DNA of 64,000 nt, from positions 1 through 64,000 of the forward strand of contig CALMQM010000058.1 of NCBI GenBank assembly GCA_937871435.1, written 5' to 3'. This stretch comes from an uncultured Bacteroidota bacterium (GTDB lineage: Bacteria; Bacteroidota; Bacteroidia; AKYH767-A; 2013-40CM-41-45). A program made the translations under genes and the position numbers. The notes under the pieces were generated by a model. The model saw nothing but the letters and a program-made list of their open reading frames with translations. It made no database searches and was not told where the DNA came from. Within the stretch, counting starts at the first letter, position 1. Every line of letters begins with the position of its first letter. Shown here in pieces: positions 34,545 to 55,662 of the stretch.

Positions 34545-34624
34545 CAAGAGAGGGTGTTTAGGTTGATGGAATCGGAAACAAAGAAACAATAAAATACGGG
34601 AACTGAAAAAGGCCTGTATTTCAA

Positions 34625-43600: not shown

Positions 43601-46600
43601 TCCGGGATAAACCACAATTGTATCACCAACTTGTGCATCAGCCATCGCAGATGTGATGTTCGGATAAGTACCGTTGACAAGTAACGCATCAACATTCAGA
43701 CGGGCTCCTGAGAAACAACCGGTATGAATACCTGAGTTATTATCATCACAATCTGTGTTATTGGAAACATATCCTACGAGGAAACAAGGTGAAGTTGTAG
43801 TTGTTGGATTGCCAGGATCACCATAGCCATCACCGTCAACATCCGCAAATACAGTACCTGCGTAACCGCCTTCCCAATTGGATCCGGAAACATCACTTGA
43901 CAATTCAAAATTGTGCAGTGTTCCGTTTAGTCCATTTCCACTTCTGTCAATGAGTGTAGTAACAGGTCCGTTTTCTGAACCCGCGGTACCCTGATCAAAT
44001 GTGTAATATTGCATCAGGTTAGCCTGCCCATTAACATAAGCAACACGATTTTGCATGATCTGAGCTTGCGTTTTAGCCACGTTCCAGAAACGTACCTCAT
44101 CAATTGAACCATGATACCAATCCTGATTTTGTTCAGGCCATCCACCCATTTTCAAGAGATCGTTGCCACTGGTTAAATCTCTTGAATAAGTATCCTCAAC
44201 ATCCGAATTCAATGTTCCATTCAAATAAATTCTGTAGTGCTGCGCTTGTCTTACAATTGCAACATGCGCCCAAACGCCTGTTGATACAGAGGAAGTAGTA
44301 CTTAAAAAGAGTGATTCAGGTGAACCGGAAGCAGCCATTTCCCATTGCAAGCGACCATCCGGTTGAACTGTAAGAGACCAGTAATTTCCGGTTTCTGTTG
44401 TTTCATTTGTCCTTGTAGACAAAAGTGTTCCTCCGAATGAATTCACATTCACCCAAGCTTCAACAGTAAAATCAGATGAACCAAGATTCGGATCACTGGT
44501 TTCAACATAATCATCCACTCCGTCAAAGTTCAGCGAGTTGTTTTCATCCAGAATACCGTTACAGTTCTGATCCACTGCATCACACAAATCGACAGCTCCA
44601 GGATTGATGCTTGCGATGTGGTCTTCACAATCACCACCTAAAGCAACATAATCCAATGGTGGACTGCAAGTGAATATTGTTACTGCATCGTCACCAAATC
44701 CATCTCCATCAAAATCCTGATACCAGGTTTGCGGATGAATTGATGCATCACCATCATTGCAATCGGTATTGTCGGCAACCCAACCTACCGGAACAGAACA
44801 GGAATTATCAAAACTGGCAGAATTGTCAGCATCTCCGTATGAGTCGCCGTCAGCGTCAGCATAATACACAGCCGTAGTAATTGGGGCACATTCATTACCT
44901 GTTGAAACACCACTGTTTGACGACCAGTTAGAGGATGATCCACTAAGCGCAAAATTGTGCAGGTCGCCATTTAATCCAATTCCGGCAACATCATTCAACA
45001 CATCTTCAGCACTGTTGTTAACTCCGTCAAATCCCTGATTGAAATTGTATGCTGCCACTATTTCCGGCTGAGGAATGGTTACTTCACAATTCATGTGATT
45101 GGATACCGCTGCATCACAAAATGCAGTATTCCAGATCTGCACTTCATCCATATAGCCCTGGAAAGTGTTATCGTAACTACCCAAAATCAGATTTTCAGTT
45201 GTGGTAGTCGCTCCGGGTGTTCCTGTCCATGGCATACTCGAAGCAAGCGTGCCGTCTACATATAACCTTCCTCCATCATTGTCAACGACGAATGCGACAT
45301 GGTGCCACAATCCATCGGCAATCATACCGCCATTCAATCCACCATTAATGTCATCGTATACATAGTTGGAAACGTCCTTGAAATAGAATGCACCCAGTGA
45401 GCCGTTTTCGATATAGAGATTATATCCGTTTCTTGAACCTGAATGATATTTTGTAATCACTCCCTGTGTTCCTGAAGTCTGGGTCGTATTTATCCATGCA
45501 GAAATTGTCAATGGATAAATATTAAATGGTACAGCGCCACCGCAATCTACAGAGTCATCCACTCCGTCAAAACTGAGTGATGATGCAGGAGTAGGTGGAG
45601 CTGAAGATCCAATCTGGAAATCACCAAATCCTGTGCATTCAAGCCCGATAAGGGAATTGTTGAAATAACCATCATCACCAACATGAGTCCACACACCATC
45701 CGCAAATTGTGATGCCTGAAGTGTGTTGGGATCAGTTACAGCAGGATCTACTTCATCTACATTCCAGTTGACAGTAAGCAGATAATCTACTACCTCAATA
45801 CCTACCGGTTCGAGATGCCACCATCTGTTAACCGTAGCGGATGGATCAAATCCTGATGAAGCTATTGCCGGATGATCCCCACTGGTTGTGTTAGCCAATA
45901 TTCCTCCACTACTGATGATGGTCGGGTTGATAACGGTGATCGGAGCATAACCATTCGCATCACCAATATCAAAATTGAACAAACCGGAAGCTAAAATATC
46001 TCTCTGCATATTTCCATCCACGTAATCTTCACTTGAACCACCAACTACTGTAGCACTATCACCAATAATGATAGTGCTTGGACCTGTATGTAAAATACCT
46101 GCAGAAAGGTTAAGTTGACTAACGATGTATTGATTTCCAAGAAGGTCAACGCCTTCTCCATTTTCAATACTCAATTTATTAATCGATCCCTCACCACCTA
46201 AGTGCTGACGAACTGTTCCGACAAAATTGAGATTGTTGAGTGTCACAGAGCCATTGTTTAAGAAATCTCCTTCAAAAGATAAGTTCTGTGATCCACCTAA
46301 TGTAGCGTCAGGTTCAACAGACACCTGACCTGCAAACCCGCCGCTGGAATAATTCAGATTCAATGTGCCCGCTAATACCTGTAGAATACCGGTATTCCTC
46401 AGGTCCACTCCATTGATGAATGAAATTGTACTGTTACCTTCCTTATTAAAAGTACCTGTAGATTCATTACTGATGAAAGAAGTAAAAATATTATCACCGA
46501 CAACATTTCCGTTTGCACTCAATGTGAGGATAGAAAAATTGCGAATGCGTGCAGCACCTGTTAAGTTCATATTTCCTCCCGGTCCCGACCACGACATATC

Positions 46601-48196
46601 TCCATAGTTCAACACGTTCAATTGATTTTCAAAGGAAACATCATCACCGTTGGTTGTCATGCCGAAACTTCCTCCGGCCATAACAGTAATTATTCCTGTG
46701 CCGGTGAAGTGGGTCATCGATCCACTGTTTATACTACCTGTATTGGTGACGATAAGAGTACTGTCCAGATTGATACTACCTGTATTGATTGAAATTGATC
46801 CGTTACATACCAGGTCATCTCCGGGACCATCAAGCAAATGCAGCGTGCCTTCAGAAATAAACAGAGATGCGCCAGATTCAATCACCACCTGATCCGCCTG
46901 GATCGGTTGAGAGTTATTAGTGATGTTAAAACCTTGTCGGATAGTAATCACTCCACTGTTTGTACCATTTGGCGCCACAACTGCAGGAACCCAAGCAGTT
47001 CCGTTGAATGTTTCCCAGCGTGTAAAATCATTCCATCCACCAAATGCAGCAGAACGATAATCTCCTGTATTTGGAATAGTTCCCGCTTCTCCGATTTCAA
47101 TCACACCCACATCCGACCCGGTATAATTCACATCAATTGAAGTGGGAGAACTACCGGTAACGTTCAATGGAATCCAGGAAGAACCAGTGTACATGCGGGC
47201 CACAAGGTTGTTGTAATTTGTTCCGGGATCAACATCAGATGGATCCCAGGTTAAAGTCATGTAAAAACCTGTAAGCGTAGCACTCGAGTTATCTATGGTC
47301 CAAGTACGGTTGATGCTTTTATCAGGATCGACTCCGGAAAATACTGCCTGGGGATGATCACCTCCATCAGTTCTCAAAGAGACATTGCCTGGAGTTCCTA
47401 TTAAAGCAGCAAGCTGAACAGGCAAGTATTTGGAAGGCGTACCGATTGGCATATTCAACCCAAGGCTAAACCCAAAATAATACTCCAGCGTACCATCAAT
47501 GTAATGGGTTGCATCCGCGTTGATGAGATTCGCGCCATTTGCTATACTTATTTTACCTGCACCGGAAGTATGAATGATTCCATAGTTGAAGGACAATTGT
47601 GAGGTAATGGTTTGTGTTCCTGTTACTACAATACCACCCGGAGTAAAGGTGAATGGAAGGAATGTCGCAATGCTTCCGTTACCATTGATCGTTTGCGTAA
47701 CAGGAGAATTCATCGCGAAAGATGACATGTTCAAAGATCCATTGTTGATCAAGGTTGTACCCCGATAAAACATATTTACTCCACCATCCATTACGGATCC
47801 TGTTGTCATATTCAAGGTTGCTGAGGTATCCCAGCTGAGACTTCCATCGACGGTAAAGTCCGAACCCGGTCCGTTATTGACAACAAACAAACCTCCATTT
47901 ACAAACAGGGAAGCGGTTGAACCAACATACAACTGGTCAACAATTTTGTTTGTATTTACAGATACCGTGAAAGCAGTATCAATATGAATTTCACCATCAG
48001 TATAGGTTGGCGGAGCAGCAGGAACAACCCAGCCGGTTCCGTTGTATCGTAACCAAATGCTGACATCATCCCAGTTTCCTGATGAAACACAGAAATAGTC
48101 GCCAACCGATTGCGCACCTGCATGCATGAAGGTGAGTACAGTGGCGAATACCGTGACTAAAATTTTCGAAAATCTTCTGCGTAAGAAAGAATTCAT
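34700..48196 (-). CDS. 4498-residue T9SS-secreted multidomain protein with subtilase-like domain
   Basis: Starts at the ATG at 48196, giving a signal peptide of ~28 residues (ending MHAGAQ); the frame extends 26 residues upstream but without a better start. Order of parts: beta-rich repeats with YRSAAFGGWNDFTRWETFNG (~30-860); a LamG domain (~868-1050); MopE-like metal-binding repeats (DADGDSYGDADN, DQNCNGILDENN; ~1110-1215); a second LamG (~1215-1390); a right-handed beta-helix-like part (~1500-1830); a discoidin-like part (~1930-2065); SprB/PKD-like domains (~2070-2510); an S8 peptidase-like domain (~2645-3060) with Asp2662, SAGNFG and the serine of GTSCAAPHAAG (Ser3011); MBG domains (~3180-3600) carrying seven NPRVIT units; SprB repeats (~3600-3930); five PKD-like domains (~3950-4400); and a T9SS type A sorting domain (~4412-4498, AYPNPTTGRFTVAFDA). 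It is probably a surface adhesin or surface protease. The usual catalytic His of the S8 triad appears to be replaced by Glu2707. Confidence 0.92.
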   Translation of the reverse strand: MNSFLRRRFSKILVTVFATVLTFMHAGAQSVGDYFCVSSGNWDDVSIWLRYNGTGWVVPAAPPTYTDGEIHIDTAFTVSVNTNKIVDQLYVGSTASLFVNGGLFVVNNGPGSDFTVDGSLSWDTSATLNMTTGSVMDGGVNMFYRGTTLINNGSLNMSSFAMNSPVTQTINGNGSIATFLPFTFTPGGIVVTGTQTITSQLSFNYGIIHTSGAGKISIANGANLINADATHYIDGTLEYYFGFSLGLNMPIGTPSKYLPVQLAALIGTPGNVSLRTDGGDHPQAVFSGVDPDKSINRTWTIDNSSATLTGFYMTLTWDPSDVDPGTNYNNLVARMYTGSSWIPLNVTGSSPTSIDVNYTGSDVGVIEIGEAGTIPNTGDYRSAAFGGWNDFTRWETFNGTAWVPAVVAPNGTNSGVITIRQGFNITNNSQPIQADQVVIESGASLFISEGTLHLLDGPGDDLVCNGSISINTGSINLDSTLIVTNTGSINSGSMTHFTGTGIITVMAGGSFGMTTNGDDVSFENQLNVLNYGDMSWSGPGGNMNLTGAARIRNFSILTLSANGNVVGDNIFTSFISNESTGTFNKEGNSTISFINGVDLRNTGILQVLAGTLNLNYSSGGFAGQVSVEPDATLGGSQNLSFEGDFLNNGSVTLNNLNFVGTVRQHLGGEGSINKLSIENGEGVDLLGNQYIVSQLNLSAGILHTGPSTIIIGDSATVVGGSSEDYVDGNMQRDILASGLFNFDIGDANGYAPITVINPTIISSGGILANTTSGDHPAIASSGFDPSATVNRWWHLEPVGIEVVDYLLTVNWNVDEVDPAVTDPNTLQASQFADGVWTHVGDDGYFNNSLIGLECTGFGDFQIGSSAPPTPASSLSFDGVDDSVDCGGAVPFNIYPLTISAWINTTQTSGTQGVITKYHSGSRNGYNLYIENGSLGAFYFKDVSNYVYDDINGGLNGGMIADGLWHHVAFVVDNDGGRLYVDGTLASSMPWTGTPGATTTTENLILGSYDNTFQGYMDEVQIWNTAFCDAAVSNHMNCEVTIPQPEIVAAYNFNQGFDGVNNSAEDVLNDVAGIGLNGDLHNFALSGSSSNWSSNSGVSTGNECAPITTAVYYADADGDSYGDADNSASFDNSCSVPVGWVADNTDCNDGDASIHPQTWYQDFDGDGFGDDAVTIFTCSPPLDYVALGGDCEDHIASINPGAVDLCDAVDQNCNGILDENNSLNFDGVDDYVETSDPNLGSSDFTVEAWVNVNSFGGTLLSTRTNETTETGNYWSLTVQPDGRLQWEMAASGSPESLFLSTTSSVSTGVWAHVAIVRQAQHYRIYLNGTLNSDVEDTYSRDLTSGNDLLKMGGWPEQNQDWYHGSIDEVRFWNVAKTQAQIMQNRVAYVNGQANLMQYYTFDQGTAGSENGPVTTLIDRSGNGLNGTLHNFELSSDVSGSNWEGGYAGTVFADVDGDGYGDPGNPTTTTSPCFLVGYVSNNTDCDDNNSGIHTGCFSGARLNVDALLVNGTYPNITSAMADAQVGDTIVVYPGPVDYTENIMDLTGSVTDLVIMSGFPGSKYRVIGDVYLHSGWQISGADITGTVMDSGYSASGERVFDCKINGRVLGHPANMNFEVQGDTILNADGVTMMTLFRGKWIGNYIMQYVPGYYEITQVLSSNTPSEDSVIIKGNQFDVQGGGRTIAFWGNTQYVYVANNYLRTHGTSNAILYFRGLKTVGLGQNCCINNTLMDDGSGAGFFFQIGPSGVIELRNNLLINSNYREWNPGDVTFSEFKYNFTTNSNGFQYIPADPTSVYSTTTSIDGQGLLLDGSDAFNGGDPNPIYNDVNGTRNDAGAFGGQDPLSHYFAYSIEDDIYYQDADGDGYGNPAVSTMAYAVPAGYVTDFSDCNDANASIRTPEPYIVGAVTLPSCVSNIDSLYTYQAQNFQYADHVIAFSSEYSNPDYSASKIIGAPDVYPAYGDNANAWAPLSQDASREYIEVGFNTAAPINFVDIYETYSPGAIDTVYVLNPYTSSYDAVYTATAGSAPDQARKLHVSFPTTPYPVSSIRIAMNSAYVHDWNEIDAVAVGELVPVTYDSYTWSTFETSNQILPSAPGDYSVTVTAGSCTVTSSTYTLTNSHVTIGPSFDWVICSGSPTVLAAGGAASYSWNTGETTSSITVSPTDTSIYVVTGTDINGCVSVDSITVYQYAAIDPGSIVVTNETGDLHDGSITIGPASGGVPPNYTYFISGDAYADTNNTGYFSGLEPGLYTVGILDDVPCQFDTTISIQPFAPCTPADQPTITPTVTLCTDLGTTFIVFSGSSATLSVLSGNLNDATDWTWYEGSCGGTPIGTGSSITVSPFASTTYYVRGEGGCSILGACAQTDVIVNPAVTVALSSPAIACYGEPFSVTATAGGGTPPFSGDGVFNYSGFAGTDTVIGYLVSDAAGCGVIDSIHITQPEQLVLEGAPDTLIICLEVTNIGTVSLSATGGTAPYTFSGDPTNNLPTGNYQYTVTDANGCTVTHNTYLYITNCILPYYNAPDSGKVSTILGPELKQLEEDPDSIGPPTNNQVFLIDSIEGTVFIDVIPQINQYANALAYLQTQLGMTGLIDNGDTSIIITGDFPIANLPILDTLTTLVNFARPNYAAVGAAGFINSQGDKSMKSDSTRALFGLDGSGIKVGVMSDSYKTISGNPQLIDIGNKDLPGPGNPVNQREVEVLMDYPYGKGLDEGRAMLQIVHDIAPKANLAFRTGFISAGDFAEGIVALQQDTCDVIVDDVTYITEPFFQDGIVSKAVNYVKDQGVAYFTSAGNFGNVSNEGIFNPMPAPFGIAGKAHDFGGGDYLQKIALKKGTYTLVLQWDDSLYSLKQLPGARNDFDIYLTDITGTKLFGLNRKNNWGDPIEVLPFVVQSDVEANIMIVRTWTLDSITPMKFKYVVFRGDMTIKEYQNGESTIIGQANSEGAMSVGAARYTQTPAYTNGAAPVIEPFSSVGGAPVRGVVREKPDFTAPDGVNTSVNFYSKDEEKDGLYNFYGTSCAAPHAAGTAALILGAKKKFFSESMHPDSLRSLLKRTAVDMGPTGFDYFSGAGLIDAKAAVSTFALPKPVIDSLTITDPLLSPGVDPLNVVVSGSYFMDSSVIYFGGLPLTTYYIDNNHLGATVPTFVGNPILQVYTPPIVPNGNDGGFSNGIYFNNIVKTIITVQVDNMHKRYGEVLPELTSTILFNGEPLSDHNLTAADIGLAHLNYQTLATAESGVGIYQVAATMDALDLNDPADSTLDANYEYVFLPGRITITRMPILISPKDTTMEYGDKIGDFQFNYVYDQSKIDPSNQEHFLDSIKQVHTLTMSNALVLVNPRVITNPRVITNSDFANLALVATNRALANPRVITNPRVITNSVTVIDSTLIVDLATESVFNFDADSSAIILESPGPGLHSRAMANPRVITNPRVITNPRVITNGVTDVDSIPVTNNNGDNIAVVLDEDDVTSTDTTTELKSVNLITGTTVGTWIVVPGAFFSDNFDISYGLGALTITPATLTVKADDVTAACFGTPSLTSTVSGFKNADSTGVNALSGPTLTIYDSGNNPVNTITQGGTYNVVPSDYSFAADTNYVIDYQNGTLIVPDAIAVTATISQPKCFGELGAVILSATGGDNNFTYSGDSQFDLSAGTYYYTATDGNGCSGSTSVTILAPPSQVVLTALPSQPNCAGALGSVNLSAGGGVGPYVYGGDATVNLTAGVYNYYVIDDNGCSGTASVTIQAAPSPIVLTATAIQPKCFGELGSVTLSATGGVAPYTYGGAGLTNLTAGTYSYTVSDSKGCAGSTTVLIQAAPAQLVLTATPTQPNCFGQTGSVALSASGGTPTYVYGGSPLTGLSAGTYSYTVTDANLCQTTKTATIVVPTAVTGVTSVTATSCTGSTGTATVTPSGGTAPYTYLWNPSGLTTQTITGRAAGTYTVTIKDSKNCTGAALAVITIAGSAPAAPAAITGPSGACRGQSGIVFSVAPVPGATSYQWTLPSGVSGSSTSSSITLSFSSSYSGGNLCVKAINSCGSSNYTCATLSRFTSAPSTPGAISGTATTCSAGSVTYSIAPVTNATSYVWTVSGTGLSIASGQGTTSLTVNMTAAFTYGTITVKATNCIGSSSTSTKTIYGPVGTPIWSVNSGADNQVNGVCGGSSHDYEVVYTVPGLTYIWSAPAGCIISDKRGHTGNPLTVTGVDPFGEYEVTITFPAGFVSGNITVQGTNTCGNGTVMTLPVRSTPLAPGAITGPVSSVCRASNQTYSIAAVSGATSYTWTVPSGATITNNSGRTIKVTFGSSFTGSGNVTVKANNSCGSSPVSTLAVSALTLQPGNISGATSVCKSQTSVTYSIAAVTGATSYTWTITGGATFVGSTTGTSVKVKFTTATSSSATLSVKANNLCGASAIRTLSIAVGLNCRTIEDVVEDEVSQIVAYPNPTTGRFTVAFDAKDQQKNILMVSDGLGNIVYREEMLSAEGTNLKDIDLRGNPVGIYFLVLMQDGEDVKTLRIVVQ
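37908..38216 (-). repeat. Seven NPRVIT hexapeptide-encoding units inside the giant gene
   Basis: Within the giant gene the protein reads NPRVITNPRVITN twice and NPRVITNPRVITNPRVITN once, in blocks at about 37908-37967, 38097-38135 and 38178-38216. Shorter relatives (NRALAN, SRAMAN) precede two of the blocks. The units are not identical at DNA level (for example cacgtggattt versus acgagggtt), so selection is on the peptide. They interrupt an MBG domain. Confidence 0.85.
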
Positions 48197-48572
48197 GTTT
48201 GTTTTATTTATGGTGTGTGTGATTATTTCTTGTTGATGTTTAATAGCTTTATCATGATTTCGCCCAATGGTCAATCATGTTTTGATGTTGCCGGAAAAGG
48301 CTTGAATATTTTTGAATAGAATGATTGAGTGAATAGATATGAATCAGGAGTATGCATTGTTTTCGTTCAAATTTTCAGAATGAACATGCCACGATCAAGC
48401 ATAGCAAGCTCATGCAGGCTGAGAATAATACTGAACAAATATTTTTTAGAGTATTGGGGGTAATACGTGCTTACTAAACTGCGAATTCCAAAATCTTAAC
48501 AACTCATCCACTAATGATAGCCTGAAAAATAGGCAAAAAGAGGGTGATTCGCTAAATGATTTATGTAAACGT
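48197..48572. other. Leader and promoter region of the giant gene
   Basis: About 375 AT-rich bases upstream of the giant gene's start. No gene or strong hairpin. The promoter should be here, but I cannot place it with confidence. Confidence 0.4.
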
Positions 48573-49177: not shown

Positions 49178-49315
49178 TTAAGAAATTCCTGTGCTTGACT
49201 GAAGTTTTGATTTGTTGGATCTTCCAGTAATGTTTTTGCCACCAACAATTGCTTTTGATTCAGATTTGGTAAGTTTCTTTCCAGAAACCGGACCTTTTTT
49301 AGTTGTCTTTTTCAT
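49178..49315 (-). CDS. Double-glycine leader peptide, copy 1 of the NKSKLQSSTGIS family
   Basis: 45 residues, from the ATG at 49315 to the TAA at 49178. The leader part ends KKLTKSESKAIVGG, a bacteriocin-type double-glycine motif. The 19 residues after GG are KNITGRSNKSKLQSSTGIS. It contains no Cys, Asp or Trp, and the core is basic. It is the third gene of a three-gene unit, 60 bp downstream of copy 2. Four further copies with the same core length exist within 5 kb. Expected fate, from double-glycine families in general: export and cleavage after GG by a C39-peptidase transporter. Whether the core is enzymatically modified is unknown. Synonymous differences from the other copies show that it is a real gene. 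Confidence 0.82.
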   Translation of the reverse strand: MKKTTKKGPVSGKKLTKSESKAIVGGKNITGRSNKSKLQSSTGIS

Positions 49316-49375
49316 GACTTGTGAGTTTAAAGTGTGAGATTGTATGAACTTAATTATTACGATTTACAATAGAAA

Positions 49376-49519
49376 TCAGGAAATGCCTGTGTTTGACTGA
49401 AGTTTTGATTTGTTAGCTCTTCCGGTGATATTTTTACCACCTACAATAGCTTTTGCTTCAGCTTTGTTCAACTTCTTAGCAGAAGCAGGACGTTTGGTTG
49501 ATTTGTTGAAAGTTGTCAT
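49376..49519 (-). CDS. Double-glycine leader peptide, copy 2 of the NKSKLQSSTGIS family
   Basis: 47 residues, from the ATG at 49519 to the TGA at 49376. The leader ends KKLNKAEAKAIVGG; the 19-residue core is KNITGRANKSKLQSNTGIS, with one Ser-to-Asn change from the consensus. Middle gene of the three-gene unit, 53 bp downstream of copy 3 and 60 bp upstream of copy 1. The N-terminal ~13 residues vary between copies while the GG motif and core do not, the pattern expected of a secreted peptide with a processed leader. Confidence 0.82.
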   Translation of the reverse strand: MTTFNKSTKRPASAKKLNKAEAKAIVGGKNITGRANKSKLQSNTGIS

Positions 49520-49572
49520 GGCTTTGGTTTTTTAAAATGTTTAACAATTCAATGATTTGATTGAGCTTCGGA

Positions 49573-49716
49573 TCAGGAGATACCGGTGCTTGATTGCAAT
49601 TTAGATTTGTTGATTTTACCTGCGATGTTTCGTCCGCCGGTGATTGCTTTTGCTTCAGCTTTGCTGAGTTTTTTTGCAGTGTGCTTTTTGTCTGCTTTTG
49701 TTTGTGTAGTTTTCAT
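49573..49716 (-). CDS. Double-glycine leader peptide, copy 3 of the NKSKLQSSTGIS family
   Basis: 47 residues, from the ATG at 49716 to the TGA at 49573. The leader ends KKLSKAEAKAITGG (Val-to-Thr before GG); the core is RNIAGKINKSKLQSSTGIS. First gene of the three-gene unit. Its upstream region has the shared AGAGTAAGC and GCTGAAAATCC leader motifs, the TATCTTAG box and paired direct repeats described for 49739-49904. Leu, Gln, Thr and Gly codons in the core differ from copies 1 and 2, so this is not a recent duplicate. Confidence 0.83.
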   Translation of the reverse strand: MKTTQTKADKKHTAKKLSKAEAKAITGGRNIAGKINKSKLQSSTGIS

Positions 49717-49738
49717 CTCTTTTGATATTAGCTTTTAT

Positions 49739-49904
49739 GCTTACTCTGTTGATCCCTGGTTTGGAGGATGGAGGATTTTCAGCTTGTTCCTCTTTTGTTT
49801 AAAAGTTCTTTTTTCAAATTGATGACTCTAAGATAACATCATCATGCTTCCTTTTTCAATCTGAAATGTATAAGTGGAGGACTCTTTGGATAAGTGGCAG
49901 GAAC
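49739..49904 (-). promoter_or_regulatory. Shared upstream control region, peptide operon A
   Basis: Minus-strand order, upstream to downstream: two direct repeats (plus-strand TAAGTGGAGGAC and TAAGTGGCAGGA, starts 20 bp apart, 49872-49904), TACATTTCAGAT (49859-49870), TATCTTAG (49828-49835, close to the Bacteroidota -7 consensus TAnnTTTG), GCTGAAAATCC (49773-49783), and AGAGTAAGC within 49739-49748, 23 bp before the start codon. The TGG of the nearer repeat starts 40 bp from the end of the TATCTTAG box. The same order and the same 40-bp spacing occur at 53720-53900. The repeat spacing of two helical turns fits a dimeric activator, such as a LytTR-type regulator (inference). Confidence 0.68.
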
Positions 49905-50014
49905 CGGACCTATTGTGGCGGGTTTTTTAATACCCGGAAAATCCAAAAACAAGGTTCAGAGGCTTTAGACCTGATTAGAAAATATTCCCGGATTTTAAAA
50001 CAAAGCAGAAATAG

Positions 50015-50866
50015 TCACTTGAAATACTCATAGTCATAACGGTGTTCTGCAGTCACCCGACCGGAAGCTGAAAACTCCCTGGCTGACATACGCAGACCTG
50101 CTGTGTTATAACTATACTCAATCCTGCTTTGAAAACCTGTTCGATTTTCATGAATTTCTGAAATTCTGTTTCCGGCATCGTCGTATTTATAGAGGATTCG
50201 GGAATTAATTTGCCGGTCGGGGTAGCGTTGTTCCGCCAATACCAAATGCCCTCCTGAATCATATACATAGTTCCAAACATAGTGAAACACATCACCGGGG
50301 CCGAGTTCGGTATCCGACATCAATTTAGATCCGGAATACAGGTAAACGTTCTTCGCTTTGAATCCATCCGGCCAATACCAGCTCAACACCATCAATTGGT
50401 TTTCAGAATTGTATTCTGAAACATTCCGGTATTTGTAGGTTCCATCCGGGAGATAAAAAAAGAGTTCCTTCCTCCTGCCCTTTTCATCATAGTCGATGAG
50501 TATGCGATACAACAGGCTGCTGTCCGCGTTCAAAGCAATCGTCGAATCTAAATTGCCGGCGGTATTGTAATACAGTGAAGTGAGACAATCAAGCAAACTA
50601 TCCTTACTGAATTGCTTTTCCGATCTCACTTTCCCATCTGAGTAGAACTCGCGAATGAATACTGGAAATTCATTTTGTTTTATTCCTGCAAAGGTTATTG
50701 CTTTGAATTCTGTCCATTTGCAGATATGATTTTTTCGCATCAGTTCTCTTTCTATCATTTCATCAGACAAAACCGGTGCTGAATCCATACAGGAAATCGA
50801 TAGCAGGAACAGGAACAACACCTGAATCAAAGTACCGTTTCGGAGCAATGCTCTGATTTTAATCAT
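50015..50866 (-). CDS. Lipoprotein with YD/RHS-like repeats
   Basis: 283 residues. Lipoprotein signal at 1-26 with lipobox SISC (VLFLFLLSISCMD). The rest shows ~20-residue units of the YD-repeat kind, such as ILIDYDEKGRRKEL, VWNYVYDSGGHLVLAEQRYP, YKYDDAGNRISEIHENRTGF and IEYSYNTAGLRMSAREFSAS, which form beta-strands in RHS/toxin-antigen proteins. No toxin domain follows, so a surface or periplasmic structural role is more likely. 24 bp downstream of the next lipoprotein gene and probably co-transcribed with it. Confidence 0.8.
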   Translation of the reverse strand: MIKIRALLRNGTLIQVLFLFLLSISCMDSAPVLSDEMIERELMRKNHICKWTEFKAITFAGIKQNEFPVFIREFYSDGKVRSEKQFSKDSLLDCLTSLYYNTAGNLDSTIALNADSSLLYRILIDYDEKGRRKELFFYLPDGTYKYRNVSEYNSENQLMVLSWYWPDGFKAKNVYLYSGSKLMSDTELGPGDVFHYVWNYVYDSGGHLVLAEQRYPDRQINSRILYKYDDAGNRISEIHENRTGFQSRIEYSYNTAGLRMSAREFSASGRVTAEHRYDYEYFK

Positions 50867-50890
50867 AATCGAATTTCCACATTTTCGTTT

Positions 50891-51571
50891 TTACAGCGAA
50901 CTCAGGTACTGATAAAATTCTTTTTGTGTCACCCATTGGTATTCTCCCTTTACTGTAAATAAGCTTGTATCAACAGGAGAACTAAAATCTACTTTCGTCG
51001 CTTCCAGTTTCATGGCGAGATTATTCACTGTATGTGTATATTCCAACATCAGAAATGGAATATTTTTAAAGGGAGAATTTCTATAAGAAAACTGAATAGT
51101 ATCGTTAAAAAATACTTCGGTTTGCAGACCAGAGCCGACATCCGTTACAATCGCTTTTTGACAATTCATGCCTGCAATTACTTTCTGTTCATTTGTGTTT
51201 CTGATCAGAAGGGAATCACTTTGCTCATTCTGTGTTATTTCATCGGGCGTGAGTTTACATCCGATATTTTGCCTCAAACGATCGATAAGTAATGAAACGT
51301 AATTTTTTTTCCCGGCATCCAGCAAATTCACCAATTGGATCATTCCCATAGCCCCGGAAGCAATGAATGCAGCTTTGTCATTTTTAAAAACGAGGACAAT
51401 TTCTCTGGGAAAAAAAGCTGACTTCATTCCATATTTCGCGCTGTCAGGATAGCTTACTTTGTAAACCACCATTCCTTCACCGGGTTTTGCAGCCTGTTGT
51501 TTCCGTGAATTGCAAGCTGAAATCAAAACAACGAACAGGACGCACAGAATCGGAGAAAATACTCTTTTCAT
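50891..51571 (-). CDS. Lipoprotein, DUF4412-like
   Basis: 226 residues with lipobox LISAC (signal ~1-20). The mature part is a beta-rich domain: GEGMVVYKVSYPD, then KNDKAAFIASGAMG, NEQKVIAGMNCQKAIVTD and a C-terminal LEATKVDFSSPVDTSLFTVK. This follows the plan of DUF4412/GLPGLI-like proteins of Bacteroidota (an uncertain match). Likely faces the periplasm or surface. Probably in one operon with the YD-repeat lipoprotein downstream. Confidence 0.75.
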   Translation of the reverse strand: MKRVFSPILCVLFVVLISACNSRKQQAAKPGEGMVVYKVSYPDSAKYGMKSAFFPREIVLVFKNDKAAFIASGAMGMIQLVNLLDAGKKNYVSLLIDRLRQNIGCKLTPDEITQNEQSDSLLIRNTNEQKVIAGMNCQKAIVTDVGSGLQTEVFFNDTIQFSYRNSPFKNIPFLMLEYTHTVNNLAMKLEATKVDFSSPVDTSLFTVKGEYQWVTQKEFYQYLSSL

Positions 51572-51620
51572 GACGAGAAAGATACAGGATTCGGATGAAA
51601 CTTATATTGAATCATGCTAT

Positions 51621-51656
51621 AAAAACAACATCCCGGTGGAAAACGTCCGGGATGTT
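51621..51656 (-). terminator. Rho-independent terminator of the YceI-like lipoprotein gene
   Basis: AACATCCCGG (51627-51636) pairs with CCGGGATGTT (51647-51656), a 10-bp stem with a 10-nt loop. Plus-strand AAAAAC at 51621-51626 supplies the U-tract on the minus strand. It separates this gene from the lipoprotein pair downstream. Confidence 0.8.
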
Positions 51657-51718
51657 GATTATTCACACTAAGCAGGAGATGCTCCGGTACTGATTTCAGC
51701 ACAGGATGAACACTGTGT

Positions 51719-52846
51719 TTAATATTCAGTATTGGTTGCTCCTTTTAATTGTACGTGGCAATTCACGGTAACATCGCCATTGCCAATGTGTGCTGAACTC
51801 ACATAGTAGTCTGCGGCAGGATTGAATTTAAATTGTCCTTCAAAAATAAATGCCCAGTTGTAATTCGCGCCAGACAACCATTTTGTTTTGCCTTCATAAA
51901 CGAAATACATATCAACCGGTTTTTCAATCATTGTATTGAATGGTCCGGTGTAACCAAGAGTAGTGTCAGCAGGATAAATACCACCTGTTGGGTGTTTGTA
52001 GAAAGATTTCAGAATTCCATGGCAAAGATATCCGTCACCATATTTCTCCACTGAAACACTGCGGAAAGTAGCGGTGTCAGTTTCTGGCAATGCTGTAAGC
52101 GCATCAACTGTATCAACACACAGGGTTTTGCGAACACAACCGCCGGCCAATGCATCACGTACAGGTTCAAATGTATTCACAGAAGAAAGCAAAACATATC
52201 CTTCAATTTTAATCGCTGACGGATCCGCTTCGTTGAACACAAAATCACGCACTTCAAATACATTGAATCCGCCTGGTAAAATCGCACCACCTGTATGATC
52301 CGGGAAGGCAAAATCAATTTTACTGTGGATTTCCCAGCTTACTTTACGATATGAAGTATTGGCAGTGATCGTATCCATGGCAATTTTCAAAGTACCCACA
52401 GCAGCCTGATTCACCAATTCGATATTCTGTGTTACATCAACTGATCCCATAGTGATAGCATAACCCGGGTTAGTTGTGAAATTCACTCCGTTCACATAGC
52501 GGTAATTGGTATTTTCAGTATTGTATTTGGCAGTGAGGAAATAAGATCCCGGCAGCAAATAAGGAAGACTGTATGCGCCATTGGCATCCGCGAAAGTTGT
52601 TGCAACAGGATTTCCTGATACAGAAGATCCGACATACAGATTGATAACTGCTCCTTTTGCAGGAGTAGCTGCACCGGTATAATCCGGATATGTTACATCA
52701 CCTGAAATTGCTTTGCCTTTTAGAGTATCGTGTACCGTTACCGTTACTGTTTGTGTTTCGGTGTCTTTTTTACAATACGTTAGAGAAAATACCATTGCCA
52801 CCAGCACTGTCAGTGACAAGAATTTGTATGCGTTCATCGTTTTCAT
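51719..52846 (-). CDS. Lipoprotein with carboxypeptidase-regulatory-like and YceI-like domains
   Basis: 375 residues from the ATG at 52846, which opens the signal; ATG at 52837 is also possible, while 33 upstream in-frame residues are rejected as they lie in front of the signal. Lipobox at SLTYC, so it is lipid-anchored. Residues ~35-140 form a carboxypeptidase-regulatory/CNA-B-like beta-sandwich (FADANGAYSLPYLLPGSYFL). Residues ~160-330 resemble a YceI domain (FNVFEVRDFVFNEADPSAIK, NTFEPVRDALAGG, ATFRSVSVEKYGDGYLCHGI); YceI proteins bind isoprenoid-like lipids in a barrel. It sits between the two peptide gene groups, but a link to the peptides is only positional. Confidence 0.8.
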   Translation of the reverse strand: MKTMNAYKFLSLTVLVAMVFSLTYCKKDTETQTVTVTVHDTLKGKAISGDVTYPDYTGAATPAKGAVINLYVGSSVSGNPVATTFADANGAYSLPYLLPGSYFLTAKYNTENTNYRYVNGVNFTTNPGYAITMGSVDVTQNIELVNQAAVGTLKIAMDTITANTSYRKVSWEIHSKIDFAFPDHTGGAILPGGFNVFEVRDFVFNEADPSAIKIEGYVLLSSVNTFEPVRDALAGGCVRKTLCVDTVDALTALPETDTATFRSVSVEKYGDGYLCHGILKSFYKHPTGGIYPADTTLGYTGPFNTMIEKPVDMYFVYEGKTKWLSGANYNWAFIFEGQFKFNPAADYYVSSAHIGNGDVTVNCHVQLKGATNTEY

Positions 52847-53351
52847 AACTTTTATTTTAGGTGTTAAAAAATAGTAGTGGATAATTGCATACAAATGTTC
52901 ATTATTCTGCATGCCCCCAGATATGACTCCGGTCAGTGGAATCATTGATCTGTATCATCAGAATAATCATCTTTCCGGAAAACGTCTGCGATTTCGCAGC
53001 TATATTAAGTTACTGCGAAAACGCAGGAAAATAAAATGAATCACCGATAATTTGAATTCTCTCTATCTGAAAACTGAAAATGGAAAAATTATTCGGTAAA
53101 GAATTTTCATCGGTAACCTAAAAAGCCCGAAATACTTTTTTGATCAATCATAGTCGGGTAAAAAAAATTCAATGTGTTTTTCAATGCTGAGGAAGCAAAA
53201 AAGATGAATGGACATTATGTAAAAAAGAAAAGAGAGAAACAATTAGTTTCTCTCTTAGATTCATTGAGATGAAATCTCAGTTGAACTTCAAACCAGGGAT
53301 CAGGAAATATTTCCCTGCCGGCAAACAGATATAGGTACCTGTTTTTATTTC
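52847..53351. other. Intergenic stretch with a terminator, no gene
   Basis: About 500 AT-rich bases. It contains the promoter region of the YceI-like gene, which I cannot place, and the terminator at 53221-53257. No further peptide gene was found on either strand. Confidence 0.5.
53221..53257 (-). terminator. Rho-independent terminator of peptide unit B
   Basis: AGAGAGAAAC (53231-53240) pairs with GTTTCTCTCT (53246-53255), loop of 5. Plus-strand AAAAAAGAAA at 53221-53230 gives the U-rich tail. It follows peptide copy 4. Confidence 0.75.
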
Positions 53352-53492
53352 TTAAGAAATACCGGTGCTGGATTGCAACTTGGATTTGTTTGGTCCACCT
53401 TTGATGCTTTTACCACCAACGATAGCCTTTGCTTCATCCTTAGTCAGCTTCTTAGCAGAAACCGGACTTTTTGGGCTTTTTGAGTTTTTCAT
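53352..53492 (-). CDS. Double-glycine leader peptide, copy 4 of the NKSKLQSSTGIS family
   Basis: 46 residues, from the ATG at 53492 to the TAA at 53352. The leader ends KKLTKDEAKAIVGG; the core is KSIKGGPNKSKLQSSTGIS, the only copy with Pro and a second GG in the core. 75 bp downstream of copy 5, with a hairpin in the gap (53541-53560), so it may be expressed at a lower level than copy 5 or read independently. Its N-terminus (MKNSKSPKSP) is shared with copy 5 (MKTSKSPKG), which marks the two as a sub-pair. Confidence 0.83.
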   Translation of the reverse strand: MKNSKSPKSPVSAKKLTKDEAKAIVGGKSIKGGPNKSKLQSSTGIS

Positions 53493-53540
53493 TGTGTAGA
53501 TTTTTGTATGATTAAAAATAACAAAATAATTTAAATGAAA

Positions 53541-53560
53541 ACGGGTTCTTTAAAACCCGT
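53541..53560 (-). terminator. Hairpin between peptide copies 5 and 4, possible intra-operon terminator
   Basis: ACGGGTT (53541-53547) pairs with AACCCGT (53554-53560), loop of 6. On the minus strand it is followed by TTTCATTTAAATTATTTTG. It lies 8 bp after the stop of copy 5 and 49 bp before the start of copy 4. It probably limits read-through into copy 4 or protects the upstream mRNA end. Confidence 0.65.
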
Positions 53561-53567
53561 TGAGCAA

Positions 53568-53696
53568 TTAAGAGAGACCAGTGCTGGACTGGAGTTTTGA
53601 TTTGTTCACTCTTCCTTTGATGTTTTTGCCACCAACGATTGCTTTTGCTTCTGTTTTAGAAAGCTTTTTGCCTTTTGGGCTTTTTGAGGTTTTCAT
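53568..53696 (-). CDS. Double-glycine leader peptide, copy 5 of the NKSKLQSSTGIS family
   Basis: 42 residues, the shortest with a full core, from the ATG at 53696 to the TAA at 53568. The leader ends KKLSKTEAKAIVGG; the core is KNIKGRVNKSKLQSSTGLS, with Leu replacing Ile before the final Ser. First gene of unit B, preceded by the full shared control region (53720-53900). The start at 53696 is supported by the constant distance to the AGAGTAAGC leader motif in all three units. Confidence 0.83.
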   Translation of the reverse strand: MKTSKSPKGKKLSKTEAKAIVGGKNIKGRVNKSKLQSSTGLS

Positions 53697-53719
53697 TGTA
53701 TTATGTGTTTGTTGTTTTA

Positions 53720-53900
53720 GCTTACTCTGTTGATCCCTGGTTTGGGGAGGATTTTCAGCTTTCTCCTCTTTTTAAAAACTTTAATGCGGTATGAATTACT
53801 ACTTGATTTTCTATTTGATGACTCTAAGATACTATCAGGAACTACCGGAATACCATCTGAAATGTACAGTTGGCGGGATTTCCGGATAAGTGGCGGGATT
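53720..53900 (-). promoter_or_regulatory. Shared upstream control region, peptide unit B
   Basis: Two perfect plus-strand direct repeats TGGCGGGATT at 53871-53880 and 53891-53900, starts exactly 20 bp apart. Then TACATTTCAGAT (53855-53866), TATCTTAG (53824-53831, again 40 bp from the nearer repeat) followed by AGTCATCAA, GCTGAAAATCC (53749-53759) and AGAGTAAGC (53720-53728, 24 bp before the start codon). Between the last two motifs the sequence is nearly identical to unit A (the minus strand reads CCAAACCAGGGATCAAC). A long frame on the minus strand across this region ends inside the leader and is not credible as a gene. Confidence 0.72.
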
Positions 53901-54040
53901 GACTTATTTTCCGGTGAGAATTGGTTTCCAATCCGGTTTATTTCCCTCCTCTCCTTTTCCTTTCCTTTTAATACAAAGAACAATATACACTCTTACCTGA
54001 ATTTCCGGTATAAGTTTCAGACAGAAACTTGTTTGAACGT

Positions 54041-54068
54041 ACTCCCTGCCCCGGATGAAACAGGGAGT
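54041..54068 (-). other. Hairpin after the short-core peptide gene
   Basis: ACTCCCTG (54041-54048) pairs with CAGGGAGT (54061-54068), an 8-bp perfect stem with a 12-nt loop, about 40 bp after the stop of peptide copy 6. There is no U-tract, so it may be an mRNA-stabilising stem rather than a terminator. Confidence 0.45.
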
Positions 54069-54106
54069 TAAATTGTTGTCGATTCCCTTTTACAGGAAAC
54101 CCTCAA

Positions 54107-54229
54107 TTACTTTTTCTTTTTGTCAACCATTCCACCGACAACTGACTGTGCCTGCTTTTTGGAAAGCTTGGTACCGCCTGAGATAGATTTCGCATTCTTC
54201 GCGGTAACTTTTTTTGTGCCTTGTTTCAT
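54107..54229 (-). CDS. Double-glycine leader peptide with a degenerate core (copy 6)
   Basis: 40 residues, from the ATG at 54229 to the TAA at 54107. It keeps the leader pattern (TKLSKKQAQSVVGG) but after GG it has only MVDKKKK, without the NKSKLQSSTG(I/L)S core. A second GG occurs earlier (AKSISGG). Its upstream leader carries the same AGAGTAAGC and GCTGAAAATCC motifs at the same distances as the other two units, so it belongs to the same regulon. It is divergent from the cysteine-rich RRE-like protein gene, with a direct-repeat operator between them. Either a decayed copy or a separate product, for example a pheromone or a decoy leader. Confidence 0.72.
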   Translation of the reverse strand: MKQGTKKVTAKNAKSISGGTKLSKKQAQSVVGGMVDKKKK

Positions 54230-54254
54230 TGTATGAAAGATTAAAATATGTTTG

Positions 54255-54476
54255 GCTTACTCTTTCGCTTACCGGAATGGTTGCAGGGATTTTCAGCATG
54301 CTCCCTTCGATTTATTTTATAACGTTTGTTGATTTCGTTTTAGGAAAGTGTATTTTCGAATTTTCCAAACATCAAAATCTGACTCTTAATTTTATTGTAT
54401 AAATGTACACTTCCATTTCACATACACAAACCCAAAATGAATATTGGTGCGGATTTTCCGGATAAGTGGCAGGTTT
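54255..54476. promoter_or_regulatory. Shared control region between peptide copy 6 and the cysteine-rich gene
   Basis: AGAGTAAGC (54255-54263, minus strand, 26 bp before the peptide start) and GCTGAAAATCC (54287-54297) are conserved. A direct-repeat pair lies at 54445-54476 (TGGTGCGGAT and TGGCAGGTTT, starts 22 bp apart, joined by TTCCGGATAAG as in unit B). The TATCTTAG box is not recognisable here and the distances differ from the other two units. The pair is 77 bp upstream of the plus-strand ATG at 54553, so it could control both directions. Confidence 0.58.
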
Positions 54477-54552: not shown

Positions 54553-55662
54553 ATGTCATCTTCTTCTCCCGGCTTCCACGAAAGTTCTCTCCCACTTCGC
54601 TACTCTTCCTGGATCAATGAAATTATACGGGGAGATATCCCAACCGAAAAACTGGCTACCTGTCATGACTGTGCCATGTGTCGGAAAGCGGATGAACCCG
54701 AAGAATCGCAAGGTCTTTATTTTGATCCCAAAGTCCGCTGCTGCTCCTATGTTCCAGAGCTTCCAAATTTCTTATTAGGTCGAATTCTTCTTGAAAAGAA
54801 CAGTAAAAGTGTGCCCGGAAGAGACCTTCTGCTAAATCGAATCACTCAACGAATAGCACTTAGTCCCATGGGACTTGGATCAGGGAAAATGTATTCTTTG
54901 CTTTATTCCAACAGCGAGCACGCATTCGGCAGCAGTTACCACCTGCGTTGTCCATACTATATTGCTGATGGTGATCTGTGCGGAATCTGGAAGCACAGAA
55001 ACTCAGTTTGCTCCACCTGGTTTTGTAAACATGAACGCGGGGAAGAAGGATACAGATTTTGGGCAGCCGTGAAACAATTGCTCAGTACAATTGAAAACAA
55101 CCTGGCTTTGGCTTGCCTAATGCATTTGCAACTTTCCAATGACTCAGTATTCGAAATTCTTGCCCAGAAACAAGCTGAGGCGGAAGGCGGGAAAGCCAAT
55201 CTACTCGCCACTTCTGAACTGGATCAAGTGGTGGATGAAAAAACGTATAGAATTCTCTGGGGAGAATGGGAGGGCAAGGAGCAAGAGTTTTTTATTCGCT
55301 GCGCTCAATTTGTTGACGCTCTCAGCTGGAAAGAGGTTTTAGGTCTCTGTGGACCGGAAGTGAGTCTGATGATTCCTCTTGTTAAAGAAGCCTATTTACG
55401 TTTACAAAAAAAACCCTTACCCGATGTTCTTCTTCCCGGTCCCATAAAGGTTTCACAGGTCAACGAAGAAAATGTATTGGTAGAAACATACAGCGAATAC
55501 AACCCGCTTAGCTTACCTACTTTTATCTTCGAAATTTTATCGGCATTTGATGGCAGCGAAACAAACGAAGTTCTTGCCAGGTTAGCACGTGAGAAAAAAG
55601 TGGAAGTGGAAGAAGATTTTATCCGCATCCTATGCGATTACCATGTCCTTGTTCCGGCCTGA
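54553..55662 (+). CDS. Cysteine-rich YkgJ-like protein with a C-terminal RRE/PqqD-like domain
   Basis: 369 residues from the ATG at 54553. A GTG at 54466 would add 29 residues but lies inside the direct-repeat operator, so I reject it. N-terminal part: C37-x2-C40-x2-C43 (ATCHDCAMCR) and C63-C64 in KVRCCSYVPELPNFLLGRIL. Then a YkgJ-like pattern, C133-P ... C143-G-I-W-K-H-R ... C153 ... F-C158-K-H160 (RCPYY, LCGIWKHRNSVCSTWFCKHE). YkgJ-type proteins are thought to bind zinc or an Fe-S cluster. The last ~70 residues (~300-369; SLPTFIFEILSAFDGSETNE, VEEDFIRILCDYHVLVP) follow the hydrophobic pattern of PqqD/RRE peptide-recognition winged helices. Similar full-length hypothetical proteins occur in other bacteria, as I recall, but without known function. 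Divergent from peptide copy 6. I infer a leader-binding metalloprotein that acts on the peptides. Confidence 0.75.
   Translation: MSSSSPGFHESSLPLRYSSWINEIIRGDIPTEKLATCHDCAMCRKADEPEESQGLYFDPKVRCCSYVPELPNFLLGRILLEKNSKSVPGRDLLLNRITQRIALSPMGLGSGKMYSLLYSNSEHAFGSSYHLRCPYYIADGDLCGIWKHRNSVCSTWFCKHERGEEGYRFWAAVKQLLSTIENNLALACLMHLQLSNDSVFEILAQKQAEAEGGKANLLATSELDQVVDEKTYRILWGEWEGKEQEFFIRCAQFVDALSWKEVLGLCGPEVSLMIPLVKEAYLRLQKKPLPDVLLPGPIKVSQVNEENVLVETYSEYNPLSLPTFIFEILSAFDGSETNEVLARLAREKKVEVEEDFIRILCDYHVLVPA

Follow-up and report, generated by a model that had tools for sequence, protein, structure and literature searches.

Short cationic double-glycine (GG) peptides exported by ATP-binding cassette (ABC) transporters with a C39 peptidase domain are classic bacteriocins. 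Besides class II bacteriocins, the peptides processed by C39 or peptidase-containing ABC transporters (PCATs) include microcins, ComC/BlpC pheromones and many ribosomally synthesized and post-translationally modified peptides (RiPPs). The C39 leader consensus comprises GG, GA or GS at positions -2 and -1, Leu at -12, Glu at -8 and hydrophobic residues at -7 and -4 (PMC6363468). Streptococcal bacteriocins are under the control of LytTR-type repeats, with ACCACTTAT-12bp-ACCGCTTAT reported for BrsR and ACCACTTAC-12bp-ACCACTTGC for pneumococcus, while LytTR-type operons of Bacteroides show an 11-bp repeat spacing (PMC6193735). Here, we describe six small GG-peptide genes of an uncultured Bacteroidota bacterium and a neighbouring gene for a Cys-cluster protein with a predicted RiPP recognition element (RRE). 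They are located in the first 64,000 nucleotides of contig CALMQM010000058.1 (assembly GCA_937871435.1), which is the whole stretch analysed and is called the window in the following. We regard it as reasonably probable that these genes represent a LytTR-controlled RiPP-type regulon in which the Cys-cluster/RRE protein acts as partner, and the synthesis, chemical finishing and secretion of the peptides are probably coordinated for the whole set.

Precursor peptides and their conservation

All six genes are on the minus strand. They encode peptide 1 (49178..49315; leader MKKTTKKGPVSGKKLTKSESKAIVGG, core KNITGRSNKSKLQSSTGIS), peptide 2 (49376..49519; leader end KKLNKAEAKAIVGG, core KNITGRANKSKLQSNTGIS), peptide 3 (49573..49716; KKLSKAEAKAITGG and RNIAGKINKSKLQSSTGIS), peptide 4 (53352..53492; KKLTKDEAKAIVGG and KSIKGGPNKSKLQSSTGIS), peptide 5 (53568..53696; KKLSKTEAKAIVGG and KNIKGRVNKSKLQSSTGLS) and peptide 6 (54107..54229), in which the leader end TKLSKKQAQSVVGG is followed by MVDKKKK without a core. 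The initial annotation had claimed a six-member family with an invariant core; the six open reading frames (ORFs) are all present where it had placed them, but only five are true members, and gene 6 is no more than a leader-type relative. Peptides 1-5 consist of 42-47 amino acids with 23 invariant positions, and in each of them exactly 19 residues follow the GG, as had been stated for five of the six. Their cores end with NKSKLQS(S/N)TG(I/L)S; in addition to I/L, the core claimed to be invariant has an S/N exchange at one position (gene 2). The invariant core residues include Lys, Ser, Thr, Asn and Gln, each core has four or five basic residues, and the composition confirms that Cys and the acidic residues Asp and Glu are absent from all five. 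The computed monoisotopic masses of the unmodified 19-mers are 2005.09, 2016.11, 2001.13, 1916.07 and 2044.18 Da.

A profile made from peptides 1-5 retrieved exactly these five from their own 4.36 Mb genome with E-values from 4e-22 to 4e-26, which makes a chance resemblance untenable. Gene 6 matched the joint GG-peptide profile with an E-value of 3e-10, being itself a member of that profile. The use of differing codons for the same core residues was correctly cited in the initial annotation, and its claim of conservation at the protein level is borne out by the paralogues, in which silent sites are near saturation and replacements are few: the mean proportions of synonymous and non-synonymous differences (pS/pN) are 0.66/0.14 in the 19-residue core, 0.70/0.12 in the leader and 0.70/0.05 in the last 12 codons. 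These comparisons argue for a genuine five-member family of GG peptides conserved at the protein level. The occurrence of one core in multiple copies suggests that the dose of a single product is raised, and not that a diversified mixture is made.

Homologues of the core were found neither in 41 other genomes of the order nor in a draw of 395 genomes of the class, a pattern scan of GTDB with one genome per species, the viral contigs of IMG/VR or the plasmids of PLSDB. Hence, the search for homologues proposed earlier gave none outside this genome, an outcome that the initial annotation had named as one against a functional peptide family. The functional evidence consists of the silent-site divergence among the paralogues together with the genomic context. 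At the available sampling, the sequence searches indicate a lineage-restricted peptide. That the core resembles no described family agrees with a literature search, not covering subscription papers, in which no description was found. Rfam models matched the peptide region only below their gathering scores.

Leader type and candidate exporter

The leaders of peptides 1-5 carry Leu at -12, Glu at -8, Ile at -4 and Gly at -2 and -1, i.e. the residues of the C39 consensus, while position -7 is Ala or Ser and not Leu. A single gene for a C39-peptidase ABC transporter exists in the genome, on another contig (C7:42907) and unlinked to the peptides. It is directly followed by an HlyD-like gene and preceded by a GG peptide of its own (leader MKNSASNKKAVAKKAIEKIDKADLKKIKGG, core QTPTHRVNYAKGKGAIA). 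A census of small GG ORFs in the genome by profile search yielded seven GG peptides with the joint profile, namely the six of the locus and the one on C7. The C7 exporter may also serve the peptides of the locus. In their leader, their small precursors and the presence of C39-ABC and HlyD-like genes in the genome the peptides resemble known C39/PCAT-processed peptides, from which they differ by their own core type, the five near-identical copies, the unlinked exporter and Ala/Ser at -7. A GG leader is likewise present in bacteroidetocins and further GG peptides of Bacteroidota (TIGR04149, NF047798), but the core of the locus is without Cys. TIGR04149 did not match the locus peptides; the nearest NCBIfam model was NF047798 (leader_Chryseo, 'bacteriocin-like protein') with at best 18 bits against a cut-off of 23.5.

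As a side observation, three proteins with tetratricopeptide repeats and an adenylate/guanylate cyclase domain were noticed (window 32592-34589, minus strand; L007:6088-8064; L008:6310-8364), of which the first belongs to the window itself, while of the other two one lies within a few kb of the C39 exporter locus and one is on the same contig as the window.

Common upstream regions of the peptide units

The peptide genes form three transcription units, unit A with three genes (peptide 3 first), unit B with two (peptide 5 first) and unit C with gene 6. The regions 5' of the three units align with each other, and the exact sequence CCYGCCACTTATCC occurs at only three sites in the 4.36 Mb genome, one 5' of each unit. 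Upstream of unit A, a direct repeat is found at 49868..49901 (minus strand; GCCACTTATCC ... TCCACTTATAC; start-to-start distance 20 bp, 11 bp between the 9-mers), which reads as an imperfect direct repeat GCCACTTAT-11bp-TCCACTTAT and shows a clear resemblance to the LytTR type (9/11, shuffle p 5e-5). The corresponding repeat of unit B (53864..53897, minus strand; GCCACTTATCC ... GCCAACTGTAC, again 20 bp start to start) reads GCCACTTAT-11bp-GCCAACTGT. The third site (CCTGCCACTTATCC; 54438..54473, minus strand) has a degenerate second copy and is situated between gene 6 and the divergent Cys-cluster/RRE gene, such that the site is 80 bp from the start of the latter and both genes have their upstream region in common.

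Same-orientation direct 9-mers close to ACCACTTAT with 11-12 bp between them are also found in the streptococcal BrsR/HdrR promoters. Different from the BrsR/HdrR systems, no linked LytTR gene was recognised here, and the repeat of unit C is degenerate. The genome encodes 15 LytTR domains as candidates for the regulator. Moreover, the 5' untranslated regions (5'UTRs) on the minus strand are conserved in unit A (49722..49796) and unit B (53716..53772) and have a counterpart in unit C (54251..54304). A hairpin of 5 bp is common to all three; in unit A it has the form GAGGA...TCCTC and is followed by CCAAACCAGGGATCAACAGAGTAAGC, whereas in unit C (AGGGA...TCCCT) two pairs are changed on both sides compared to A and B.

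The Cys-cluster/RRE protein

The gene divergent from gene 6 (54553..55662, plus strand) encodes a protein of 369 amino acids with eight invariant cysteines, a YkgJ-like motif and a predicted RRE fold at the C-terminus (residues about 284-369). The model of the whole protein (predicted local distance difference test score, pLDDT, 86.7) has as its best fold match in the Protein Data Bank (PDB) the lasso-peptide RRE protein TbiB1 bound to a leader. With the C-terminal domain modelled alone (pLDDT 92.9), the eight best PDB folds all belong to RRE-bearing proteins, i.e. TbiB1, the LynD/TruD heterocyclases, McbBCD (the microcin B17 synthetase) and TigE, with Foldseek probabilities of 0.80-1.00. Based on these models, the C-terminal domain is predicted to be an RRE. 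RiPPs have a dedicated maturation protein, in most cases with an RRE, encoded beside the precursor; here, 54553-55662, next to and divergent from gene 6, encodes a predicted RRE fold and would be a candidate for such a protein. With the known RRE proteins (TbiB1, LynD/TruD, the microcin B17 synthetase, TigE) the protein would have in common this modelled fold and the occurrence of relatives within RiPP clusters; it differs from them by the fusion to an eight-Cys domain instead of a cyclodehydratase or a radical S-adenosylmethionine (rSAM) barrel.

The invariant cysteines in an alignment of 27 rows are C37, C40, C63, C64, C133, C143, C153 and C158. A stretch of 23 columns, CPYY..D..C.IW.HR..C, matches YkgJ with an hhalign score of 29 (maximum of 30 column shuffles, 16.7); the match was obtained without realignment, and with realignment nothing was found. 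The Cys-cluster signature is common to both, as YkgJ reads CPFL...CSIYEHRP.AC, but the protein differs from YkgJ/PF03692 by the spacing CxxC...CC of its first cysteines, by carrying an RRE domain and by scoring below the Pfam cut-off. PF03692 matched 8 of 27 family members weakly (best E 0.05, below the gathering score of 23 bits) and did not match the window protein itself. FliB, a [4Fe-4S] flagellin lysine N-methyltransferase, has eight conserved Cys and a motif likened to PF03692 (PMC8598068). The eight conserved cysteines of the window protein are FliB-like, a comparison made with the description of FliB and not with its sequences. NCBIfam gave no match at E<=0.001 for the protein, hence also none to the FliB model NF038110, which was found in no genome searched and is thus uninformative for this comparison. 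Generally, no Pfam, NCBIfam or PDB sequence match above cut-off was obtained, and a viral fold library gave no match for the model.

A literature search, again without subscription papers, yielded no report of RiPP clusters that contain a YkgJ-like protein, and in the main text of two RRE surveys neither YkgJ nor PF03692 nor an iron-chelating domain is mentioned. The Cys-cluster/RRE protein is apparently of an undescribed kind.

Relatives in other phyla and their gene neighbourhoods

None of the other 41 genomes of the order has the Cys-cluster/RRE gene. A scan of GTDB detected 27 relatives, which belong to Acidobacteriota, Myxococcota, Pseudomonadota, Planctomycetota and further groups, with a Blastocatellia protein as the closest (42%), and a later profile search added one more (28 in all). 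In the tree, the window protein groups with the proteins of Acidobacteriota and Myxococcota, and a separate clade is formed by those of the other Bacteroidota. This placement fits a lateral acquisition of the gene without proving it.

Five relatives adjoin GG-peptide genes. One locus has at least eight GG peptides with TfuA and YcaO (L045), another five with a C39-ABC gene (L068), and two GG peptides each are accompanied by C39-ABC and HlyD (L043) or by an rSAM/SPASM protein (L050); L051 has three GG peptides and no other listed partner. A strict leader pattern matched 19 peptides of the forward loci, of which two are probably spurious, compared to one in the reversed sequences. The four relatives from other Bacteroidota are all in or beside lasso-peptide genes, either in lasso clusters with B1, B2 and AsnB genes (L041/L067, L064, L094) or next to a lasso-like precursor at the end of a contig (L065). 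Hence, the link of this protein family to RiPP-type peptides is recurrent, although not universal.

Some of these neighbourhoods deserve a separate remark. The Pyrinomonadaceae cluster L045 (L045:2263-8478), with the GG leader TKKRTQVKDLPKKEKKLSAKDMKKVKGG and cores that often have K/P-rich tails, looks like a thioamide-type RiPP cluster. A GG peptide at L050:3521-3808 (minus strand), adjoining the rSAM/SPASM maturase, contains TGIS repeats (...KTGISTGISTGISTGIK...CGCG), and its likeness to the window core in TGIS is probably a coincidence. Directly 5' of the closest relative, two tandem paralogous small ORFs (L042:7236-7974) of the form MP(I/L)SEY(I/F)LLA(L/M)LASGG...QPNGGALSSVY are candidate precursors of another type. 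Furthermore, a lasso cluster of Runella aurantiaca contains an additional gene of the Cys-cluster/RRE family together with the precursor MKNKSLLKPKRKYATPVLKHYGSVQKLTFGMGSGGGDGMSTMMDV.

Interpretation and alternative explanations

How the parts of the proposed regulon would act together we infer for the regulator, leader binding, modification and export route as well as for the biological role. A LytTR regulator would switch on units A, B and C together, the RRE domain would bind the precursor leader, the Cys cluster (probably Fe-S or another metal, in analogy to FliB) may perform or assist the modification of the core, and the only C39-peptidase/ABC exporter of the genome, together with the HlyD-like partner, would cut after the GG and secrete the product. 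More tentatively, the eight-Cys/RRE family could comprise class-independent, FliB-like tailoring enzymes of RiPPs with a metal or Fe-S centre, guided by the RRE to GG or lasso precursors, and here modifying a co-induced Lys/Ser/Thr-rich core; this is possible but less likely than not, with the chemistry taken from the FliB analogy. Lys methylation as an obligatory reaction is weakened by the lasso precursor of L041, the predicted core of which is without Lys.

The neighbours scanned were part of the window ORFs. A lasso peptide was rejected, as the cores offer no Asp/Glu for a macrolactam and B1, B2 and AsnB-type genes were absent among these neighbours. The earlier exclusion of lanthipeptide and graspetide chemistry from the composition stands on both core residues and scanned neighbours, as cores without Cys and the lack of LanB/LanM or rSAM genes also speak against ranthipeptide-sactipeptides, and neither Asp/Glu acceptors nor an ATP-grasp gene were found. 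The initial annotation had overlooked the upstream repeat and 5'UTR hairpin common to the units, the divergent Cys-cluster/RRE gene with its recurrence beside GG peptides and in lasso clusters, and the single C39 exporter on another contig.

Several observations weigh against the LytTR-controlled RiPP-type regulon. The exporter is not linked to the peptide locus, and the Cys-cluster/RRE gene is divergent from gene 6 instead of being in the same operon, with distances of about 0.9 kb to unit B and 4.8 kb to unit A. The LytTR-type repeat is weaker in unit B (7/11, shuffle p 0.03) and poor in unit C (6/11, shuffle p 0.07). About 18 of the 28 relatives, mainly from Myxococcota, have no recognised GG peptide or lasso gene nearby. 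The RRE match has Foldseek E-values of 0.013-0.13 and is structural only, modest values that are to be expected for a domain of only 86 residues; hhalign of this domain with two lasso B1 proteins gave nothing, so the RRE assignment is drawn from folds. The N-terminal domain is without a PDB fold match.

The same leader, exporter and repeats would also suit an unmodified class II-type bacteriocin or microcin, i.e. cationic 19-mers exported by the C39 transporter that kill competitors, with the Cys-cluster/RRE protein as an unrelated neighbour or an immunity or regulatory protein. Short cores that follow a GG leader, have four or five basic residues and lack acidic ones agree with this, as do the control of streptococcal bacteriocins by LytTR-type repeats (PMC6193735) and the weak, below-cut-off match to the 'bacteriocin-like protein' model NF047798. 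We nevertheless consider it unlikely, because five near-identical cores are ill-suited to a diversified toxin set, the core is polar and without Cys, no immunity gene was recognised, and GG peptides or lasso genes repeatedly accompany the Cys-cluster/RRE protein in several phyla. Near-identical cores would suit a single receptor, and the combination of GG leader, C39 exporter and LytTR-like repeats resembles the Blp/Com architecture, in a genome with 15 LytTR domains. The core could then be a secreted pheromone, a quorum signal that acts back on the promoters of its own genes through a LytTR two-component pair. Given that neither a receptor kinase nor a LytTR gene was recognised adjoining the peptides, that five copies are rare in signalling systems and that an RRE partner is foreign to known pheromone systems, such a role appears rather improbable, though it would be compatible with RiPP-type peptides if the signal is modified. 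Finally, the locus could consist of non-functional remnants of a laterally acquired cluster, leader-bearing and kept by duplication; the Cys-cluster/RRE gene missing in the 41 order genomes and grouping with Acidobacteriota/Myxococcota, the core lost or never present in gene 6 and the unlinked exporter can be read in this way. Intact reading frames, protein-level conservation with near-saturated silent sites, conserved upstream modules and compensated hairpin pairs make this highly improbable.

Other genes around the locus

Between units A and B, three lipoprotein-like genes are found (window 50015-52945, minus strand), one with weak GLPGLI similarity and one with a weak carboxypeptidase-regulatory domain; they could include immunity or accessory functions. 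Directly downstream of the peptide locus, an ORF of 4524 amino acids (window 34700-48274, minus strand) has repeated NPRVITN motifs and, on visual inspection, stretches that resemble LamG, subtilase and MBG.

Significance

GG peptides for which no modifying enzyme can be recognised are frequent and have for the most part been disregarded. Those described here led to a protein family with a Cys cluster and a predicted RRE, which in different phyla is repeatedly accompanied by GG arrays, YcaO/TfuA, rSAM/SPASM or lasso genes. With LytTR repeats like those of streptococci in the proposed peptide regulon, the regulation of peptides also becomes testable in Bacteroidota. If the Cys-cluster/RRE protein is indeed an enzyme, it would stand for a new peptide chemistry and provide a search handle for RiPP clusters that have so far gone unrecognised.

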